DNA from: an uncultured Clostridia bacterium
Lineage (GTDB): Bacteria; Bacillota; Clostridia; Christensenellales; UBA1242
Length of the DNA: 60,830 bases
Reading direction: 5' to 3'
Assembly: GCA_944377315.1 (NCBI GenBank)
Contig: CALWEM010000021.1
Location: 1 to 60,830, forward strand
Part shown: positions 28,736 through 47,803 of the stretch, one piece after another
How positions within the stretch are numbered: position 1 is the stretch's first letter
Layout of the letters: every line of letters begins with the position of its first letter
Program-made: the position numbers and the translations under genes
Notes under the pieces: model-generated
Told to the model about the DNA's origin: nothing
Database searches by the model: none
The model's input: only the letters and a program-made list of their open reading frames with translations

Positions 28736-29143
28736 ATGACTTGGTCGCAAATTATTGAAGATTATGCTGGTGCAAGTGCAAGCGGTTGGCTTCCACAACT
28801 CTTGTCAACTCTTGAATGGGTTTTGTGGGTGGCTCTTATCATCACAGCGGCTGCTGGTGCAATATACGCTATCTATGTTGGCGTTAAAATGGCAAGAGCG
28901 GACTCATCTGAACAAAGAGAGGAATCCAAGAAAAGATTGATTAACATCATTGTTGCAATTGTTGTAACCATTGCATTGATTTTGTTCTTCAACGTTCTTT
29001 TACCAATGATTCTTGATGCAACCGGCGTTTTCGAAGGTGCATTTGGTGATGGCAAGCCATCAGGTGGCGATAATGAAAATGCAGGTGGCACAGCCTTAAT
29101 CACAACAATTGTCAACACTGCCAAAGTTTTGCTTAAAATCTAA
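28736..29143 (+). CDS. VirB2/Mbov_0395-like two-helix (pilin-like) membrane protein
   Basis: The 135-aa protein has two membrane helices (about residues 24-50 and 68-92) separated by a basic loop with VGVKMARADSSEQREESKKRLINI, then a short Gly-rich exported stretch and a third amphipathic segment. The layout and loop are very similar to the pilin-like conjugal-transfer proteins (TrbC/VirB2, Mbov_0395 type) of Firmicutes and mycoplasmas. No cleavable signal peptide is evident, and no VirB4, VirD4 or relaxase gene lies nearby, so a role in conjugation is unsupported. A strong ribosome binding site and its own terminator suggest an abundant single-gene product. Confidence 0.6.
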   Translation: MTWSQIIEDYAGASASGWLPQLLSTLEWVLWVALIITAAAGAIYAIYVGVKMARADSSEQREESKKRLINIIVAIVVTIALILFFNVLLPMILDATGVFEGAFGDGKPSGGDNENAGGTALITTIVNTAKVLLKI

Positions 29144-30853: not shown

Positions 30854-33571
30854 TTATCGTTCGTTTTTAAGCATACAACAATTTTTATACTTCTTTCCGC
30901 TTCCGCACGGACAAGGGTCGTTTCTGCCAATCTTTTTCTCGGTGTTCACCACAGTTTTTTGGATTTTTTGTTCCTTTGGTTGTTCGCCCGGGTCATATTT
31001 TTTTGCTTCGGTGTTTTTGAGATTATTTTCTGGTCTTGCCGGTTCTTTTCTTCTTATTTCAATGTTTGTGTTGAGAAGGAAAAGGCAAGTCGTTTCCTTG
31101 ATTCTTTCCACCATTTTGTCAAACATTTCAAAACCATCTTTTTTGTATGCAAGAATTGGGTCCTGGTTTCCAAAACCGCGTGCAAAAATCTCGTTTTTCA
31201 TTATTTGCATATCATCAATATGATTCATCCAATTGCTGTCAACAACACGAAGAAGGATAAATTTTTCAACAACTTTTTCAAAATCAATTCCCAATTTCCC
31301 TGCTTCTTGCATACGATTTTGATATCTCGCCTTGACAAGTTCCACCACTTTGTCGCGGAAATCTTCAATGTCAAAGCCTTCACACATATCTTCATTGATG
31401 ATGTTTTTCCCACGCTCCAAAAGCCCATTTTCAAGTTCTTTGTTGATTTTTTCATAGTCCCAATCAAAATATGGTTTCTCTGGGTCAACACAGCGGTTGA
31501 CAAAGGTGGTGACAACTGTTGGAATCATATTCATTATCTGCTCGTGCACGCTCTCGCCATCCAAAACACTGTTTCTTTGAGCATATATAATCTCTCTTTG
31601 TGCGTTCAAAACATCGTCAAATTGAAGCACTGTTTTTCTTATGGCAAAGTTTTGCATTTCAATCTTTTTTTGTGCTGTTTCAATCTGCTTGGAGAGTATT
31701 TTGAGTTGGATTGGCGTGTCTTCTTCAAGTTTGAAGAATGTGGCAATTTTTTTGAATTTTTCGCCCGCAAATCTTCTTATTAAATCATCCTCAAAAGAAA
31801 TGAAGAAAACGCTTGAACCTGGGTCGCCTTGTCTTGAAGCACGACCACGAAGTTGGTTGTCAATACGCCTTGATTCGTGTCGTTCTGTGCCGACAATATG
31901 AAGACCGCCTGCCTTTTTCACTTCTTCTTTTTCGGCATCAGTCACCTTCTTAAACTCGGCGAATAATTCATTATATCTTTCTCTTGCCCGATTGAGTTCC
32001 TTGTCGTCAACCGTGTTAAAAGCAGTGGCATATGAAATTTGCTCATCCGTGAAATTCTCGTCTTTCATCTTCTTTTTCGCCATAAATTCAGGATTTCCGC
32101 CCAGCAAAATATCCGTTCCACGCCCTGCCATATTGGTGGCAATGGTCACCGCGCCTTTTCTTCCCGCTTGTGCCACAATCTGACTTTCCATTTCGTTGTT
32201 TTTGGCGTTCAAAACGGTATGCTTAATCTTCGCTTCTTTAAGTGCTTTTGAGATAAGTTCACTCTTTTCAATCGTGATTGTGCCGACCAAAATTGGCTGT
32301 CCCAAAGCATTTCTTCTTTTGATTTCTTCCACAATTGCCTTGATTTTTCCGCGTTCGGTGGAAAAAATAATGTCCGGCTCGTCTTGTCGAATATTTGGCA
32401 AATTTGACGGGATTGTGACAACATCAAGGTTATAAATTGCTCTGAATTCTCCTTCTTCTGTCTTCGCCGTTCCTGTCATACCTGAAAGTTTGTGATAAAG
32501 ACGGAAATAGTTTTGAAAAGTGATGGTTGCAAGAGTTTTGTTCTCATCTTTTATCTCCACACCTTCTTTCGCTTCAATTGCCTGATGAAGTCCGTCACTA
32601 TATCTTCTTCCCGGCATCAAACGCCCGGTAAATTCGTCAACAATAATAACTTCGCCGTCTTTCACAATATAGTTTTCATCTTTAAACATCACAAAATTTG
32701 CCTTCAAAGCATTGTTTATGTGATGATTGAGTTCCAAATTGTCAATGTCAGAAAGGTTGTCCAACTTGAAATATCTCTCCGCTTTTTCAATTCCACTTTC
32801 CGTCAAATTAAGTTGTTTGGTTTTTTCGTCCTTTTCATAATCTTCACTTTTCAAAGTCTTGACAAATTTTTGCGCAGAAAGATAACTGTCGCTGGATTTT
32901 ATTCCGCGTCCAGAAATAATGAGTGGCGTTCTTGCTTCATCAATCAAAATGGAGTCCACTTCATCGACAATGGCAAAAGCGTGACCGCGTTGCACTCTCT
33001 GTTCTTTGGTCACAGCCATATTGTCACGAAGATAATCAAACCCAAGTTCATTGTTTGTGCAGTAAGTAATGTCAGCCAAATACGCCTTTCTCTTTTCGCT
33101 CTCTTGCATATTTGACACAGCAATGCCAACAGAAAGTCCCAAAAAGCGATATACCTTTCCCATCCACTCTGCGTCACGCTTTGCAAGATATTCATTGACT
33201 GTGACCACGTGCACACCTTGACCGGTTAAGGCATTGAGATATGCTGGAAGGGTTGCCACAAGGGTTTTACCTTCACCAGTCGCCATTTCAGCAATACGCC
33301 CTTGATGAAGAGCAATACCACCAAGAATTTGCACATAGAAATGACGCATTTTCAAGACTCTGTCAGACGCTTCACGCATAACTGCGTATGCTTCTGGCAA
33401 CAAGTCCATCAAGGTTTCACCATTTTTGTATCTCTCCTTGAATTTTTGCGTGCACGCTCTTAACTCTTCGTCCGAAAATTCGCGATATTTGTCTTCAAGT
33501 GCCACCACTTTGTCGGCTATCTTTTTAAGTTTTTTTACTTGTGATTTGTTTTCATTTCCAAAAAGTCCCAT
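30854..33571 (-). CDS. secA: Preprotein translocase motor SecA
   Basis: The 905-aa ATPase drives proteins through SecYEG. It starts at MGLFGNENKSQ behind AGAGGGAA. Walker A is in MATGEGKTLVA and Walker B in DEVDSILIDEARTPL; the DEAD-like motor, preprotein cross-linking domain and helical scaffold follow in order. The C-terminus is IGRNDPCPCGSGKKYKNCC, the zinc SEC-C motif for SecB or lipid contact. Length is usual. It is followed with no gap by the HD-domain gene. Confidence 0.96.
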   Translation of the reverse strand: MGLFGNENKSQVKKLKKIADKVVALEDKYREFSDEELRACTQKFKERYKNGETLMDLLPEAYAVMREASDRVLKMRHFYVQILGGIALHQGRIAEMATGEGKTLVATLPAYLNALTGQGVHVVTVNEYLAKRDAEWMGKVYRFLGLSVGIAVSNMQESEKRKAYLADITYCTNNELGFDYLRDNMAVTKEQRVQRGHAFAIVDEVDSILIDEARTPLIISGRGIKSSDSYLSAQKFVKTLKSEDYEKDEKTKQLNLTESGIEKAERYFKLDNLSDIDNLELNHHINNALKANFVMFKDENYIVKDGEVIIVDEFTGRLMPGRRYSDGLHQAIEAKEGVEIKDENKTLATITFQNYFRLYHKLSGMTGTAKTEEGEFRAIYNLDVVTIPSNLPNIRQDEPDIIFSTERGKIKAIVEEIKRRNALGQPILVGTITIEKSELISKALKEAKIKHTVLNAKNNEMESQIVAQAGRKGAVTIATNMAGRGTDILLGGNPEFMAKKKMKDENFTDEQISYATAFNTVDDKELNRARERYNELFAEFKKVTDAEKEEVKKAGGLHIVGTERHESRRIDNQLRGRASRQGDPGSSVFFISFEDDLIRRFAGEKFKKIATFFKLEEDTPIQLKILSKQIETAQKKIEMQNFAIRKTVLQFDDVLNAQREIIYAQRNSVLDGESVHEQIMNMIPTVVTTFVNRCVDPEKPYFDWDYEKINKELENGLLERGKNIINEDMCEGFDIEDFRDKVVELVKARYQNRMQEAGKLGIDFEKVVEKFILLRVVDSNWMNHIDDMQIMKNEIFARGFGNQDPILAYKKDGFEMFDKMVERIKETTCLFLLNTNIEIRRKEPARPENNLKNTEAKKYDPGEQPKEQKIQKTVVNTEKKIGRNDPCPCGSGKKYKNCCMLKNER

Positions 33572-33707: not shown

Positions 33708-33736
33708 TTGACAAGATAGTGTCATTATGGTATAAT
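33708..33736 (+). promoter_or_regulatory. Perfect-consensus sigma-A promoter
   Basis: TTGACA (33708-33713), exactly 17 nt, TATAAT (33731-33736). It is the only promoter I found in the window matching both boxes and the spacing perfectly, and it drives the giant coiled-coil gene through a short leader with GGGAGGA. Confidence 0.85.
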
Positions 33737-33758
33737 GAGAAAAGTAACGGGAGGAATT

Positions 33759-36700
33759 ATGGCAGAATCAGCAACATTAACAACCGAATATGCATTTAAC
33801 CCAGCTTTATTGTCAACATTTGCTCACAATTTGACTGGCGAACCAATTGACGAAGAAACTTTGTATGACAATTACACTCAAAATGTCAAAAAGAAACCAG
33901 GAACGGTTATTGAACAAACTGAAAGAATTGTGAGAAATGCAAAATTTACTTCACCAAAAGAGCGCAAAATCATCCTTCAATATGCTCCAAAGTATATTGC
34001 GTCACACATTTCAGAAATCGGCACCGATTTTCCAGTGGAAATTCGTGGTGACAAAATCTTTTTTAAAGGTGAAGATGGCGTAAGCAAAGAGATAAGCGAA
34101 CAACAAATTTTCAATATTATCGGTGCTCAACTTGAAAAAGATGCTGTTGGCACAACGGCAGTGTTCAAGTCGTATATGAAGCAAGATAATCTTCCAACTG
34201 ACCCGAAAATTATCATTTCCGACACACTTTCAACTTCAAGAGCCAAAGACGGAAAGTCACAAAAAGTGACGGCGTATATGCTTGACGGCGTTAATCTTGG
34301 AAGTGGTGTGCCAATCAAAGTTGGTGGAATGGAAAAAAGCCAAGAAATCGTGGCAAGTAATGACACCAAAAATTTGATTAGCATCGTTCAAGATGGGAAA
34401 ATTCTTGGAACAATTGAAAGAAACGGCGCTGGAACAAAATTGGTCTTCAAAGATGAAGAATTCAAGAAAAAGTTTGCCGACTTTTATCAAGCATATCCAG
34501 CCGGCAAAAAACAAAAATTTTCAATGAGCGACAACGAAATCCCATTGTCAAAAGTGGAAGTGGACAGCAAACTTGATGTTCGCGTGGGCGTGGCAAACAC
34601 TGATATCGCCGCTCTCTTCACTGCATATGGCTCACAAATCGTTGACAATGAGAAACATTCTGCTGTTCACAGAGGAAAATCTCCAATTTCTTTCGTCATC
34701 AGTGACGAATTCAAAAAAGATGCTTTTGTGGGCAAAAATGGTTGCTCAATTAACACTGACAAAGTCACCACAGCTGTTGAAACTTTGCTTGTCAGCCAAA
34801 TGATTCAAAACCATAAATTGAAAAAGCCAAACGAAAAAATCACAAACATTAAATATGGTGGAAATGGAAAAAGAGAATTCAATTTGACCACAATTTCCAC
34901 TGAAACATATAAGCGTGACGCAAGTGGTTACGCCATTGACTATGACCAAAACGGCAAACCAAAAGGCAAAGAGACTGCCGATTTAAGATTTATGGAAGTG
35001 ACAACTCCAACCGGTAAAAACCCAGCACTTAAGTTTTATTGTTCGCTCGAAGTTCCAGATGCGCAAAACAGCAAAAAACACGAAAAGGCAAAAACCGGTT
35101 TCTATGATGTTTTGGACATTGAAATCTTCGATAATGAAAATAAAGACGCCACACAATATAAAGATATAAAGAATATGCCAACAAAGGGAAAATTCCTTCG
35201 TGTTATGGTGAAAGGCGAAGGTAAAGGGAAGGCATATGCTTTGACATACCCAATAACTGAAAACAACAAGGAGCTTGAAAATCTTGTCACAAACTGGCAA
35301 AAAACTTATGGCAAGGAAAGTTTGAGAGAAAACCAAGGAGCGGTTAACGCTTCAAACGAAGAAATTGCACTTGCAAAAACATACAGCGAAGGCGAAGTCG
35401 CTTCAATCACCAAAAGTAAACCAAAAGAAGGCTCCCCTGAACGCGATGTGGTTGACAATCAACCTTTCACTGTGGTCTATGACACTGAAAGAATCATTGA
35501 GCGTGATTATGACAACCTCACCGAAGTTCGTCCTGACCCAAAAATACAACAACATCTTCTCGTTATTTCAGAAAAATTGGAGGAATTGACAAAATCCCAA
35601 CAAGAATTAAGAGATGAGCAAAAGCGTCTTGCTGATGAGCAAAAACAATTGACAGAAGAAAACAAAGAAGCACAAGGGAAATTGGACAAAGTGCTGGAAG
35701 AAAACAAAAAGGCACAAGAAAATGTTTCAAAAGAACTTCAACAAGTCAACACAGCAATTTCTGAATTGAAAAAGAATTTGAGTGGACTTAAAGAAAATGT
35801 TGGCGGAATGAAAGAGCAATTGACAAACATTGACAATGCCATAAAAGAAAAGGCACAAAAAGACGCTGACGAATTTGCCAAAGTTCACCAAGAAATTGAC
35901 GAACACCGCAAAGAAACCGAAAAAGGCTTTAGCGAAGTTCACAAAAACATCGACGAAACCAAAGAAAAAATCACCAATCTTGAGGGAAAAGTTGATGAAG
36001 GAATGGAGAAAATCGACAATCTTCAATCATACACACAACAAATTGATCAAGACATAAAAGATTATCAGGCAAGAACCAATGAGAATTTTAATATACTGTG
36101 GAAAGTAACAAAAAATGAAATTAATAAATCTGCAGATGATATTAGAAATGAAATTAACCAATCCACACAAAATATCAGAGACAAAATTGATCAAACAAGA
36201 GATGATTTAAGCCGTGAAATGCAAGGTATTAAAGACTCTGTGGAAGAAAACCATAATTTAGTGCAAGATATTGGCCTTGATGTGAAAAATTTGAGCAATT
36301 CTGTAGCCCAAAATTCAAGAGATATCAACTCCTTAACAAGCGGGGTGAACGAACTAAAGCGTTTAGCGGGTGAAGCCGCCAATGCATCAGCAGCTGCACA
36401 AGAATCTTCAAGAAGAACAGAGAGCGCTGTTGTTAATCTTGAAAAAAGATTCACCGAACACCAAGAAGAAACAGACCAAAAGATTCAAACACTTTTGGAA
36501 ATAACGCAAAAACTGGCGGAACAAAATCAACAACTTTTAAAACAAAATCAACAAATTTTAGAACAAAATCAACAACTTTCTGAAAAAGTTGATAATCTTT
36601 CGCAAGGCGGAAGAGGCAAAGATGGCGATGGTCAGACCGGTGGTGGACAGACCGGTGGTGGACAGACCGGCGGTGGCGATGGACAAACCGGTGGTGAAGG

Positions 36701-38822
36701 TGGCAAAGGTGATGACGGCAAAGGCGGCGATGGTCTAACCACTGGCGGTGGCGGAACAACTGGTGGTGGAACAATTGGTGGCGATGGACAAACCGGTGGC
36801 GGAACAACTGGTGGCGATGGACAAACCGGCGGTGGCGATGGTGGCAAAGGCGATGACGGAAATGGTGGCGGCGGATTAACAGAGCCACCTGTTCAAGAAC
36901 CTGAAAACACTGATCGTGAATATATCCGTCAAGACAATAAAACTTTTAAGGAAAAAGAAAAATTAAAAGACCCTGATGAGAATAATGATAAAAAGGGTAA
37001 AAAGCCAGCGCATTTTTGGCAAATCCGATCTTTTTGGGTAACGGCAGGCGTTTTGACAGGAATTTTGAGTGTGTTTATTCCATTCCCAGTTTTCTTGCCA
37101 GTTGCTCTTATTGGGTTGGGTGTGAGCAGATTTTGGACTTGGCCAAAAAGAATTAAAAACGCAATAAGGAATATAAGAAATAGATTTATTGACAAATATA
37201 ACGACAATATTAAGCAAAATCAACTTACGCGCAATAAACTCAATGAAACGGCAAAAAATGCAAATATAGAACGCAACAACCTTAATCGAACAAGAGCTCA
37301 ACTTGTGGAAACCGCGAAAGCGCTCAATGAAAAAAGCGGTGCTCGCCGATTGACACAGAAAGAGCGTAAAAATCTTGAAGTAAAATTGGCAAAAGCGAAA
37401 GAAAGACTCAAAAAAATCAATGGCAAGATTCAAGAAGCAAGAACAGTTGAAATTGAAAACTTGAAAAGCAAACTCAACTTGATTAACATTGAAGAAGAAA
37501 ATCGAAAGAACTTGGCAGATGCTCGTGCACAAGAATCAGCATTAAAAAACGGCACTTCAACATATGATAAGCAAATAAAAGAACTCGAAAATCAGAAAAA
37601 TGCCAACAACAGTGAGCTTGATGAAAAACTTGCTTATATCAACACCAATCCAGAACTGCAACCTTTGGATGCATACTCTCCTGAAGCGGCTTCAATGTCA
37701 GTAAGCGAAATTGAAGAAGAAAACAAACGAAGAGAAGCAGAGAGAAAACAACAAATTGCTGAATTCAATGCAGATTATGACCAAAGAAATGGTTTAATTG
37801 ACAGCCAAATCAAAACAATTCAAGAACAAAAAGAAGGTGCCCTTAAGAAGGCAAGCGAAAAAGTTAAATTCTTCAATGCAAAAGTTTCTGAATCTGAAAA
37901 ACTGAAAACAGAATTTGATGGAATTGTCAACGAAACCACAAGAAAAAATACTCTTGATCTTCTTGAAAGCGAGCGTGATGCCGTTAACTCTGAAATTGAA
38001 CAAATCAGCAGTCAAATTTCACACGAACAATTCCTTGATGCAATAGGCGTGATGACACAAGAACAAATTGATGAAGCAAAACGCTTAACTGATGAACAAA
38101 TTAGCGCCATTGATTCGCGTCTAGGAAATTTGGCTCAAATGGGAACGAATATTGGTCAAGCTCGTAAATTATTAGATAACCCAAATTTCCAATTCACAAA
38201 TAATTCACAAATAATGCAAGAACTTAACCAGCAAATGGATGATAATTATTACTACTCAAACAATCCAAATGTAGTGATGGATAAAGCTAAAGCCGTGATT
38301 GCTAATAGTGACAGAATTGGACAAATAGACCCGCAACTCCAAAGTGATGTTTCCAAATTTGTCATTCCATACCTTCAAGACTATACCCCGACTGGCAAAA
38401 CAAAAAATGAACAACTTAAGAGTGTTCAAGAGCGTAATCAACAAATAACTAAAAACTTGGATATAATTGAGCAAAATTATATGGAAACAATCAGAAAGAC
38501 AAGCGGTGATGATGTTGCCAAAGCGTATCACGAACTCAAAAGGTTGAATGAAGAAATAAGAAATGAATCTGACCCAGCAAAACAAGCGCAATTGAAAACT
38601 GAAGAAGCTAAATACTTGGATCAAATTGACACTTTGAAGAAAAGTAGCCCAGAAAAAAGAGCAGAACTTGAAAAACACGATGAGAACTTGAATGTTATCA
38701 ACACAATGAGAGCTAATAATCGTGACAAGGCAAACACTGCAACAGAAACAATTGAATCAAATTTCTCTTCAAAACCTCAAACAAGAACACGATCAAACAC
38801 TGGTCGCAGTTCAGGAAAATAA
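33759..38822 (+). CDS. Giant coiled-coil membrane protein of unknown function
   Basis: I do not recognise this 1,687-aa protein. The start follows GGGAGGA by 4 nt; an ATG eight codons earlier overlaps the -10 box. Layout: residues 1-590 globular without a signal peptide; about 594-945 long coiled coil rich in Glu/Lys/Gln, ending in three NQQ(L/I)L-type repeats; 947-1041 Gly-rich repeats (GQTGGG, GKGDDGKGG); 1092-1126 one long hydrophobic segment with a central PFPVFLP that could be a hairpin or a single helix; 1137-1687 a second coiled coil with a Ser/Arg-rich end. A structural scaffold linked to the membrane is the simplest inference. It is transcribed alone from the strongest promoter in the window and has its own terminator. 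Confidence 0.8.
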   Translation: MAESATLTTEYAFNPALLSTFAHNLTGEPIDEETLYDNYTQNVKKKPGTVIEQTERIVRNAKFTSPKERKIILQYAPKYIASHISEIGTDFPVEIRGDKIFFKGEDGVSKEISEQQIFNIIGAQLEKDAVGTTAVFKSYMKQDNLPTDPKIIISDTLSTSRAKDGKSQKVTAYMLDGVNLGSGVPIKVGGMEKSQEIVASNDTKNLISIVQDGKILGTIERNGAGTKLVFKDEEFKKKFADFYQAYPAGKKQKFSMSDNEIPLSKVEVDSKLDVRVGVANTDIAALFTAYGSQIVDNEKHSAVHRGKSPISFVISDEFKKDAFVGKNGCSINTDKVTTAVETLLVSQMIQNHKLKKPNEKITNIKYGGNGKREFNLTTISTETYKRDASGYAIDYDQNGKPKGKETADLRFMEVTTPTGKNPALKFYCSLEVPDAQNSKKHEKAKTGFYDVLDIEIFDNENKDATQYKDIKNMPTKGKFLRVMVKGEGKGKAYALTYPITENNKELENLVTNWQKTYGKESLRENQGAVNASNEEIALAKTYSEGEVASITKSKPKEGSPERDVVDNQPFTVVYDTERIIERDYDNLTEVRPDPKIQQHLLVISEKLEELTKSQQELRDEQKRLADEQKQLTEENKEAQGKLDKVLEENKKAQENVSKELQQVNTAISELKKNLSGLKENVGGMKEQLTNIDNAIKEKAQKDADEFAKVHQEIDEHRKETEKGFSEVHKNIDETKEKITNLEGKVDEGMEKIDNLQSYTQQIDQDIKDYQARTNENFNILWKVTKNEINKSADDIRNEINQSTQNIRDKIDQTRDDLSREMQGIKDSVEENHNLVQDIGLDVKNLSNSVAQNSRDINSLTSGVNELKRLAGEAANASAAAQESSRRTESAVVNLEKRFTEHQEETDQKIQTLLEITQKLAEQNQQLLKQNQQILEQNQQLSEKVDNLSQGGRGKDGDGQTGGGQTGGGQTGGGDGQTGGEGGKGDDGKGGDGLTTGGGGTTGGGTIGGDGQTGGGTTGGDGQTGGGDGGKGDDGNGGGGLTEPPVQEPENTDREYIRQDNKTFKEKEKLKDPDENNDKKGKKPAHFWQIRSFWVTAGVLTGILSVFIPFPVFLPVALIGLGVSRFWTWPKRIKNAIRNIRNRFIDKYNDNIKQNQLTRNKLNETAKNANIERNNLNRTRAQLVETAKALNEKSGARRLTQKERKNLEVKLAKAKERLKKINGKIQEARTVEIENLKSKLNLINIEEENRKNLADARAQESALKNGTSTYDKQIKELENQKNANNSELDEKLAYINTNPELQPLDAYSPEAASMSVSEIEEENKRREAERKQQIAEFNADYDQRNGLIDSQIKTIQEQKEGALKKASEKVKFFNAKVSESEKLKTEFDGIVNETTRKNTLDLLESERDAVNSEIEQISSQISHEQFLDAIGVMTQEQIDEAKRLTDEQISAIDSRLGNLAQMGTNIGQARKLLDNPNFQFTNNSQIMQELNQQMDDNYYYSNNPNVVMDKAKAVIANSDRIGQIDPQLQSDVSKFVIPYLQDYTPTGKTKNEQLKSVQERNQQITKNLDIIEQNYMETIRKTSGDDVAKAYHELKRLNEEIRNESDPAKQAQLKTEEAKYLDQIDTLKKSSPEKRAELEKHDENLNVINTMRANNRDKANTATETIESNFSSKPQTRTRSNTGRSSGK
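36600..36880. repeat. Gly-rich coding repeats in the giant gene
   Basis: Imperfect tandem copies of 15-bp units (GGACAGACCGGTGGT and variants with GGCGATGGACAAACC) form a GC-rich island in AT-rich DNA. They encode GQTGG and GKGDDG repeats and could change length by recombination or slippage in steps of whole codons. Confidence 0.85.
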
Positions 38823-38996: not shown

Positions 38997-40091
38997 ATGA
39001 AAATTGGTATTGTTGGATTGCCAAATGTTGGCAAAAGTTCACTCTTTAACGCCATAACAAATGCTGGCGCGGAAAGTTCAAACTATCCTTTCTGCACAAT
39101 TGAACCAAATGTTGGCGTGGTTGATGTTCCGGATGAAAGATTGGATGTCCTTGGAAAGATGTATAACACTTTGAAAATCACACCGGCTGTTATTGAATTT
39201 GTCGATATTGCTGGACTTGTGGCTGGTGCAAGCCACGGCGAAGGACTTGGAAACAAGTTTTTGAGCCATATTCGCGAAGTTGACGCCATTGTCCACGTTG
39301 TTCGCTGTTTTGATAACGACAAAATTATTCACGTGAGTGGAACTGTGGACCCTAAACGCGATATTGAAACCATTGAAATGGAACTTGCACTCTCTGACCT
39401 TGAGCAAGTGGACAAATATCTTGAGAAAAATTCCAAACTCGTCAAAACAACCGGCGACAAAAGTTTGCTTGTCACCGTCAATATGTTAAAAAAAATCAAA
39501 GATATTCTTGAAAAAGGTGGACAAGCGCGTAATCTTGAATATAGCGATGAAGAACAAAAAATTCTCAAAAATTTTGCTCTGCTCACATCAAAACCAGTCA
39601 TATATGTCGCTAATATTGGCGAAAATGACCTTGCAAAAGAAACCAATGAATATGTTGAAATCGTCAAAGATATTGCAAAAACTGAAAATGCCAAAGTGGT
39701 TGCTCTTTGCACAAAAATCGAAGAAGAACTCGCACTTTTGGACAAAGATGAACGACAACTTTTCAAAGAAGAATTGGGCATCAAGTCAAGCGGGCTCGAA
39801 AAACTCGTCAAAGCAAGTTATGACCTTCTTGGACTTATGAGTTATCTCACCGCTGGCGAAAAGGAAGTGCGTGCTTGGACAATCACAAAAGGCACAAAAG
39901 CACTACAAGCTGCTGGAAAAATCCACACAGACTTTGAAAAAGGCTTCATCAAAGCGGAAGTTGTCTCCTATGATGACCTTGTCGAAGCCGGTTCATTTTT
40001 GAAAGCAAAAGAAAAAGGAAAGGTGCGAATGGAAGGCAAAGAATTTGTGATGCAAGATGGCGATGTCGTTCTTTTCCGCTTTAATAACTAA
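38997..40091 (+). CDS. ychF: YchF/OLA1-type P-loop NTPase
   Basis: The 364-aa Obg-family protein binds ATP in preference to GTP and associates with ribosomes. G1 [13 protein letters not shown] is at residues 7-19, G3 is in [18 protein letters not shown], and the NxxE-type G4 is in [10 protein letters not shown] coiled-coil insert and a C-terminal TGS domain ([27 protein letters not shown]) complete the fold. Length is as usual. Its stop is 10 nt before mrnC, so they form one operon. Confidence 0.95.
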
Positions 40092-46439: not shown

Positions 46440-46552
46440 TCATAGCATATAGTTATTATATGCTAATCTTATTTTTTTGTCAAGAGTTATTCGAAAATTT
46501 TTGCAAGTTATCGTTTTTTCTTTCAAATTATTTGTGTTTCATTTTTGAAATA

Positions 46553-47743
46553 TTAATTTACTCTCTCTTTTTCCAAAATCTTTTTTGGCTTTTGTTCCTT
46601 TTCGATATGCTCAAGATTGGTCATAATTTTTTCCGCACCGCTTTTCACACCTTCATAATATATGTCAATAAGGTCATCAATATTATGAGTTGTCACCGCT
46701 TTGTCAATGGCATTAAAATATTCTTTGGTTTTCTTGTAGCCAATCGAAACTGTTGGCATTTCATCGCGAATCAAAATATAGTTTGAGAGAATTCTGCCTG
46801 TTCTGCCATTTCCGTCCATAAAAGGATGAATACGGATGAACTCGGCGTGCGTTATGGCTGCTTTTTCAATTGGATTGAGATTTCCACTTTGTTTCCCGTC
46901 TGTCACCCACTTACTCAACAATTCAAGTTGCGACAAAAACACATCTTCGCTTGGTGGTGCCCATTCTGCTGATTTGACATATATCGGAATATTTCTGAAC
47001 AATGTTTCTCTTCCAAAGATAAGAGAGTGAATATTCAAAATCAAGTCGACAAATTCAAAACTTTTGTCACCTTCTTCTTCCTTTGCTTGACCCATCATTT
47101 TTCTGTCATATTTGGCACATTTATAAGCATATTTGAAAGCAATGAAGTGTCTTAAGGTTTCTTCTCGAAGAAAATGCTTTTTGTTTTTGCCTTCAATAAT
47201 CATAATGCCATTGTTTTTCGAATTACGCTCTTTCAAAATTTCGCACTGATGCATAAGTTTTTTGTAATACTCATATTTATCAAACGGCTTATCTTTGTCA
47301 GGGTCAGTGTCAATCATTTCGTGAAGTTTAACTTTGAAACTCAACAAATCATATGAAAAATCATCAATAATCCCCTCAATGGCATTGCTTTCTCTCGAAA
47401 AATCCAGCCAAACATTACGATTAAAACTCTTCACGCCTTCAAGATTATATCCTTTTGCCTTCATTTCTTCTTCTTTGATTGTTATCGCTCCCAAAAGTGC
47501 ATTAAGGTCAGAATAATCGTGTTCTTTGTAGGCATAAAAATTGGAAAACTTTTCTCTTTCGCTCTTTCTTTTCGGCTTGGAATTAATGAAAATATGTCTG
47601 TCATTTTCATTAATCAACTTCAAAATCATTGTGTCATAAAAATATTGGTCTACCGCATCAAATCGTCTTAAAATTGTGGACTCTTCTTGTTGCTTTTGTG
47701 TGGTTTTATAAAGTGCTTTATCCAATTTAAAATGTTTTTTCAT
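46553..47743 (-). CDS. fic: Class II Fic-domain protein (AMPylase)
   Basis: The 396-aa protein starts at MKKHFKLDKA behind AGGAG. The catalytic loop is HPFMDGNGRTGR (about residues 304-315), the complete active Fic motif. SNAIEG (residues 119-124) matches the S/T-x-x-x-E-G/N inhibitory helix on the N-terminal side, so it is a class II Fic that restrains itself with the Glu. Fic enzymes transfer AMP from ATP to target proteins. Some bacterial Fic toxins modify GyrB and ParE, and gyrB is its divergent neighbour. No antitoxin gene is visible, as expected for class II. Confidence 0.88.
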   Translation of the reverse strand: MKKHFKLDKALYKTTQKQQEESTILRRFDAVDQYFYDTMILKLINENDRHIFINSKPKRKSEREKFSNFYAYKEHDYSDLNALLGAITIKEEEMKAKGYNLEGVKSFNRNVWLDFSRESNAIEGIIDDFSYDLLSFKVKLHEMIDTDPDKDKPFDKYEYYKKLMHQCEILKERNSKNNGIMIIEGKNKKHFLREETLRHFIAFKYAYKCAKYDRKMMGQAKEEEGDKSFEFVDLILNIHSLIFGRETLFRNIPIYVKSAEWAPPSEDVFLSQLELLSKWVTDGKQSGNLNPIEKAAITHAEFIRIHPFMDGNGRTGRILSNYILIRDEMPTVSIGYKKTKEYFNAIDKAVTTHNIDDLIDIYYEGVKSGAEKIMTNLEHIEKEQKPKKILEKERVN

Positions 47744-47781
47744 ATCCGCTCCTAGTTTTAGAATAACATCAAAACCTTTCT

Positions 47782-47803
47782 TTGTCAATAGTCTTGTTGA
47801 CAA
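47782..47803. promoter_or_regulatory. Inverted repeat in the fic-gyrB intergenic region
   Basis: TTGTCAA-N8-TTGACAA forms 7-bp perfect arms. One arm supplies the minus-strand TTGACA -35 of fic, which has TATTCT 17 nt further on. The site could be an operator acting on fic, or also on gyrB. Confidence 0.45.

Follow-up and report, generated by a model that had tools for sequence, protein, structure and literature searches.

A genus-wide, highly variable giant protein encoded between secA and ychF in uncultured Clostridia, with a layout suggestive of a membrane-tied scaffold

In this work we have analysed a stretch of 60,830 nucleotides from an uncultured Clostridia bacterium, which we call the window, and in it a gene for a giant protein that lies on the forward strand between two housekeeping genes. 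Its divergent neighbour is secA (30854-33571, reverse strand) and ychF follows it downstream (38997-40091, forward strand); comparison of loci showed that the synteny is conserved on both sides. The gene is preceded by a sigma-70 promoter of exact consensus (33708-33736, forward strand), with TTGACA at 33708-33713, a spacer of 17 nucleotides and TATAAT at 33731-33736, and the -10 box is additionally extended by a preceding TGn. A ribosome-binding site, GGGAGGA, occupies positions 33749-33755 of the same strand, and the frame of 1,687 codons runs from an ATG at 33759 to 38822. The mechanically called open reading frame has eight more codons, but the first ATG in it shares bases with the -10 box. 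The initial annotation had drawn attention to a perfect promoter, a strong GGGAGGA and a protein of 1,687 residues, and all three were found where it had placed them. A count over the whole genome (1,012,251 bases, 98.5% complete) gave 39 perfect TTGACA-N16-18-TATAAT sites versus none of the reversed control pattern; a perfect site is uncommon in this genome, though the one before the giant gene is not unique. The only other perfect TTGACA-N17-TATAAT of the window is on the reverse strand at 46455-46483, just downstream of a gene for a Fic/DOC-domain protein (46553-47803, reverse strand). When the best site within 220 bases before the start was taken at each of 62 orthologous loci, the promoter was perfect at 33 of them and scored at least 11 of 12 at 51, mostly lying 50-70 bases ahead of the start. 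The same kind of test gave no perfect site for secA (0/64), ychF (0/57), mrnC (0/50) or trmH (0/54), 0/225 in total, and two in 25 for glnRS. Because perfect sites so outnumber the reversed control, and because the orthologues keep theirs far above the level of the neighbouring genes, the promoter of the giant gene is not a chance occurrence; it is a conserved trait specific to this gene. Does it also mean very high expression, as was first proposed? Codon use, compared with that of ribosomal proteins after correction for amino-acid content and with one ribosomal gene cluster as the reference, placed the gene fifth among 43 genes of the window (ratio 1.095; ribosomal proteins 1.09-1.43). Its adaptation is above average, which agrees with the proposal, but lower than that of most ribosomal proteins. 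On these sequence grounds a very high abundance of the giant protein is plausible.

All parts of the protein are given here by their forward-strand positions. It begins with a variable region (residues 1-161, 33759-34241), the length and content of which differ between orthologues and which can hold extra copies of a module that also lies in the head. The conserved, beta-rich head itself (residues 162-553, 34242-35417) is the part common to the family and was recognised by profile searches and a fold model of an orthologue. In its second half is the module (residues 321-552, 34719-35414), a predicted PH-like barrel with a helix, which is present in one to six copies per orthologous protein and which gives poor alignments when taken alone. 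A coiled coil (residues 617-952, 35607-36614) has heptad z values of 4.1-7.8 and compositional matches to SMC, EzrA and laminin II. The hinge that follows (residues 953-1046, 36615-36896) is rich in glycine, which makes up 55% of residues 953-1008, and is replaced in orthologues by Pro/Gln-rich or charged linkers. It is encoded by short G-rich repeats in which slippage could alter the length, and the orthologous linkers are unrelated to it. A hydrophobic hairpin at about residues 1091-1128 (FWVTAGVLTGILSVFIPFPVFLPVALIGLGVSRFW; 37029-37142), with a Trp/Lys juxtamembrane segment after it, leads to a C-terminal region (residues 1139-1687, 37173-38819) whose sequence character is charged and helix-like. 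The order described initially, with head, coiled coil, glycine-rich hinge and membrane hairpin, is borne out by heptad pattern, composition and hydrophobicity. Less remains of the second coiled coil that had been placed after the hairpin: the tail is indeed charged and helix-like, but its heptads are weak, with a clear signal at residues 1345-1400 only (z 3.1).

The hairpin is the sole hydrophobic stretch of the giant protein, in which we found no signal peptide or hydrophobic N-terminus. Exactly one hairpin of about 38 residues, often ending in KPW, is present in all 35 of the relatives from clade A of the genus that were read first, and nearly all proteins of clade B also have one, a few of them with weak extra stretches, some of which stem from over-called starts. 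There is a proline in the middle of the hairpin in 52 of 57 proteins. The mean net charge is +1.4 for the N-terminal flank (zero or above in 42 of the 57) and +1.7 for the C-terminal flank (49 of 57), so that on average, if not in every member, both flanks are net positive and by the positive-inside rule both ends should lie inside. With a single hairpin, its flanks charged in this way, and no signal at the N-terminus, the sequence argues for a cytoplasmic position of both large parts of the protein. This is consistent with the internal, membrane-tied scaffold which had been suggested from the order of the parts and the absence of a signal peptide.

Is such a protein related to anything already described? 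Profiles from Pfam, PHROGs, NCBIfam and PADLOC matched it by coiled-coil composition only, over residues ~570-1227, and none of weight fell in the head or the C-terminal part. A profile of the head found no match among PDB sequences, the head itself had none in 50,697 phage records (tblastn) or in plasmid records, no relative was confirmed when the whole protein was scanned against IMG/VR, and we found no literature on the gene. The earlier statement that the protein matches no known family thus agrees with the profile, PDB, phage and plasmid searches. The composition matches could be taken to mean that it is an anti-phage defence protein or a tape-measure-like remnant of a prophage, since there are weak profile hits to the coiled coils of JetC, ZorA and LmuB and a hit to the tape-measure family PHROG 4704 (E 2e-6, residues 829-1227), yet all of these are confined to the coiled coil, hinge and hairpin. 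Phage tail tape-measure proteins are alike in being very long and fast evolving, with coiled coil, hydrophobic segments and no signal peptide; the giant gene, however, is chromosomal between secA and ychF throughout the genus, with no phage genes near. Similarly, SMC and MukB-like proteins, JetC included, share the long coiled coil and the hinge, but the giant protein has no ATPase head, a scan for the Walker A motif G....GK[ST] was negative, and the profile matches extend over the coiled coil only. With neither phage nor plasmid relatives found, and with one fixed place in every member of the genus read, unlike defence islands or prophages, we consider a defence protein or a prophage remnant highly improbable. 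A match to a phage-tail or plasmid-mobilisation family, which the initial annotation had named as grounds for giving up the idea of a new system, did not appear: PHROG 4704 lies off the head and the neighbours are housekeeping genes.

The gene has a wide distribution within one genus. All 62 of the secA-side slots that were read contain a gene of this kind, nearly always between a divergent secA and a co-directional ychF, and secA, ychF, mrnC and trmH are its neighbours in nearly all loci. The initial remark that so expensive a product must matter to the cell is in keeping with this fixed position in every member read. A single-sequence search with the head reached five of 61 genomes, among them that of the window; all five belong to the genus and have the gene between secA and ychF in the same orientations. 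A profile of six heads matched 36 of 112 genomes of the genus and none outside it among 297 genomes of the order. In clade B the slot beside secA is occupied by a gene with this layout too, although BLAST made no link to its product from the window protein; iteration of the profile unites the clades, taking in 39 of the 40 proteins of clade A and 14 of the 22 of clade B. The mixed profile found 62 genomes of the genus and, outside it, a single marginal place (E 7.8e-4), and the union of both head profiles covers 83 of the 112, again with only one marginal match outside the genus. Other genera of the family, read at six loci, differ in what surrounds secA, and among 810 proteins encoded at loci of other lineages the head profiles had no match. 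The homologues range from 741 to 2,461 residues, and the nearest named records come from uncultured Clostridia MAGs, many of them from animal guts. Such families stay hidden because a search with one member finds few of the others; the link between members comes from synteny. Judged by sequence and position, the giant protein belongs to an undescribed, genus-restricted and positionally fixed family of hypervariable, giant, putative membrane proteins. The initial annotation missed this family, which is more surprising than what it described.

The constant vicinity of secA raises another question. Could the protein assist SecA, or protein export in general, as an accessory factor tied to the divergent gene with which it shares an intergenic region? 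SecA is highly conserved, however, and the giant protein is not, sister genera carry secA without a giant gene, and the synteny with ychF is equally tight, all of which makes this explanation very improbable.

The divergence of the gene is as striking as its position is stable. Between near relatives its dN/dS was 0.17-0.61, compared with 0.01-0.07 for secA, ychF, trmH and glnRS, and in one pair of relatives the giant proteins were 37% identical, whereas SecA was 98% and YchF 97% identical. Conservation is usually better in the head and the hairpin and poorest in the linker, the N-terminal region and the C-terminal part. Identity of the heads tracks that of YchF (Mantel r 0.64, p 0.001), and descent of the gene is therefore mostly vertical. 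Its dS departs from that of its neighbours both upward and downward, which suggests some exchange of alleles, although dS is unreliable at this divergence and does not distinguish selection from exchange. A gene that is fixed in place across a genus, is driven by an exceptional promoter and diverges this fast is unusual for an intracellular protein. Variability of this strength counts against an internal scaffold, being more typical of surface molecules. The main rival of a scaffold is thus a surface-exposed or partner-facing molecule with its head or tail outside, anchored by the hairpin and driven to diversify by phages, the immunity of the host or partner bacteria. A strong promoter would be expected of an abundant envelope protein, and a survey proposes a partner-dependent life for UBA1242, a small-genome family of Christensenellales with many genera of ~1 Mb (PMC12306168), in which the present lineage probably belongs. 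On the other hand, besides lacking a signal peptide and any N-terminal hydrophobic segment, the protein has no LPXTG-like tail (nor, by the same sequence scan, a WXG motif), the hairpin flanks point to both ends being inside, and it is the head which is better conserved. Taken together, we regard an exposed molecule as unlikely.

Structure prediction, which had been advised from the start, gave a partial answer for the head. The AlphaFold model of the window head reached a pLDDT of 54, its first half alone being fair to confident, and the head of an orthologue with a better alignment (locus L116) reached a pLDDT of 79 and a pTM of 0.76. For the second half of the window model Ran-binding domains lead the structural matches (best Z 6.2, rmsd 4.0 A over 114 residues), and for that of the L116 model the PH domains of FACT and Rtt106 (best Z 6.2, rmsd 3.1 A over 78 residues), the first match there that is not PH-like standing at Z 3.6. 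We kept the PH-like match of the window model because the orthologue repeated it. The module is predicted to resemble the PH superfold (Ran-binding, EVH1, and the PH pairs of FACT and Rtt106) in having seven strands and a C-terminal helix, but it has no detectable sequence relation to these domains. Since Z is only about 6, and values below 8 can reflect a common arrangement, the PH-like fold of the module is a lead and not an assignment to the superfold. Searches of the head models with Foldseek, and a fold search of BFVD, gave no match at E <= 0.001, and neither model yielded a named fold for the head's first half.

What, then, would a protein of this layout do? A scaffold of coiled coils anchored in the membrane is the most economical reading of what kind of protein it is. 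The best explanation that we can offer, and one to which we give about an even chance, is an abundant, genus-specific cytoplasmic scaffold that is fastened to the membrane on its inner side. The hairpin would insert in the membrane in such a way that its two ends stay cytoplasmic, partner proteins or lipid head groups may dock on the PH-like modules, and the coiled coils might oligomerise, so that modules, coiled coils and hairpin would form a submembrane lattice or an organising platform for cell shape, division or envelope organisation. Provided that the layout is preserved, the sequence could be free to drift or could even be under pressure to change. A membrane-anchored cytoplasmic coiled-coil scaffold of Bacillota is already known in EzrA, the septation ring regulator of Bacillus (PF06160 / NF003413), which has a single N-terminal transmembrane helix and spectrin-like repeats. 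Unlike EzrA, the giant protein has a central hairpin, a large beta-rich head and no N-terminal transmembrane helix, and EzrA profiles scored it far below their cut-offs (19.3 bits against 556 for NCBIfam and 19.9 against 39.6 for Pfam). In the genome, 98.5% complete, we found a match of the MreB family and none of DivIVA, and the search for EzrA returned only the sub-cut-off match to the coiled coil of the giant gene itself. The lack of a DivIVA match and of a true EzrA match leaves room for a membrane coiled-coil scaffold peculiar to the lineage, and a role of such a scaffold in organising shape, division or envelope would be in keeping with this. A bolder formulation, which we offer tentatively and hold to be rather doubtful as a whole, is that of a new kind of bacterial protein, belonging to the core set and strongly expressed, that builds a lattice at the membrane inside the cell from PH-like repeats and coiled coils. 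Its sequence would diversify roughly ten times as fast as that of its neighbours while layout and promoter are kept, which would make it an internal scaffold under diversifying pressure in small-genome and possibly partner-dependent gut bacteria. Either the family illustrates the freedom that an internal scaffold of bacteria has to drift, or it betrays an arms race, or a surface for partner recognition, hitherto hidden in small-genome gut Clostridia.

A different setting is raised by a gene 5 kb from the giant gene. It encodes a protein of 135 residues (28736-29143, forward strand) that resembles pilins of type IV secretion systems, with PF18895 just over the cut-off and near the Mbov_0395 family of ICE pilins; its codon adaptation is at the level of ribosomal proteins, and it recurs near secA in several relatives. 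Together with an ATPase of the VirB4/TraG type elsewhere in the genome, it suggests an abundant chromosomal apparatus similar to a type IV secretion system. Perhaps the giant protein is a structural or exported part of this apparatus, which the lineage seems to carry? The giant gene does not adjoin other apparatus genes, however, no conjugation family is among the profile matches of its product, and its distance from the pilin-like gene varies between relatives, so that we find such a role quite improbable.

The surroundings of secA hold further large proteins. At three clade B loci (L087, L092 and L107) the slot contains an additional gene for 567-752 residues before that of the hairpin protein. 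In sister genera (L096, L098 and L125) a multi-transmembrane protein of 725-909 residues is encoded near secA on the giant-gene side and may, from its look, be a TrbL/VirB6-like membrane protein of an ICE. In more distant lineages two large proteins encoded near secA have one main hydrophobic stretch (L126:8921-11833, 970 residues; L127:14364-17837, 1157 residues); these are proteins which the head profiles did not match and which are possible functional counterparts of the giant protein. Finally, on the far side of secA at four clade B loci (L106, L109, L110 and L119), very large proteins with a C-terminal membrane helix, 967 to 1469 residues of them in view, are encoded at a similar position and look like big surface proteins.
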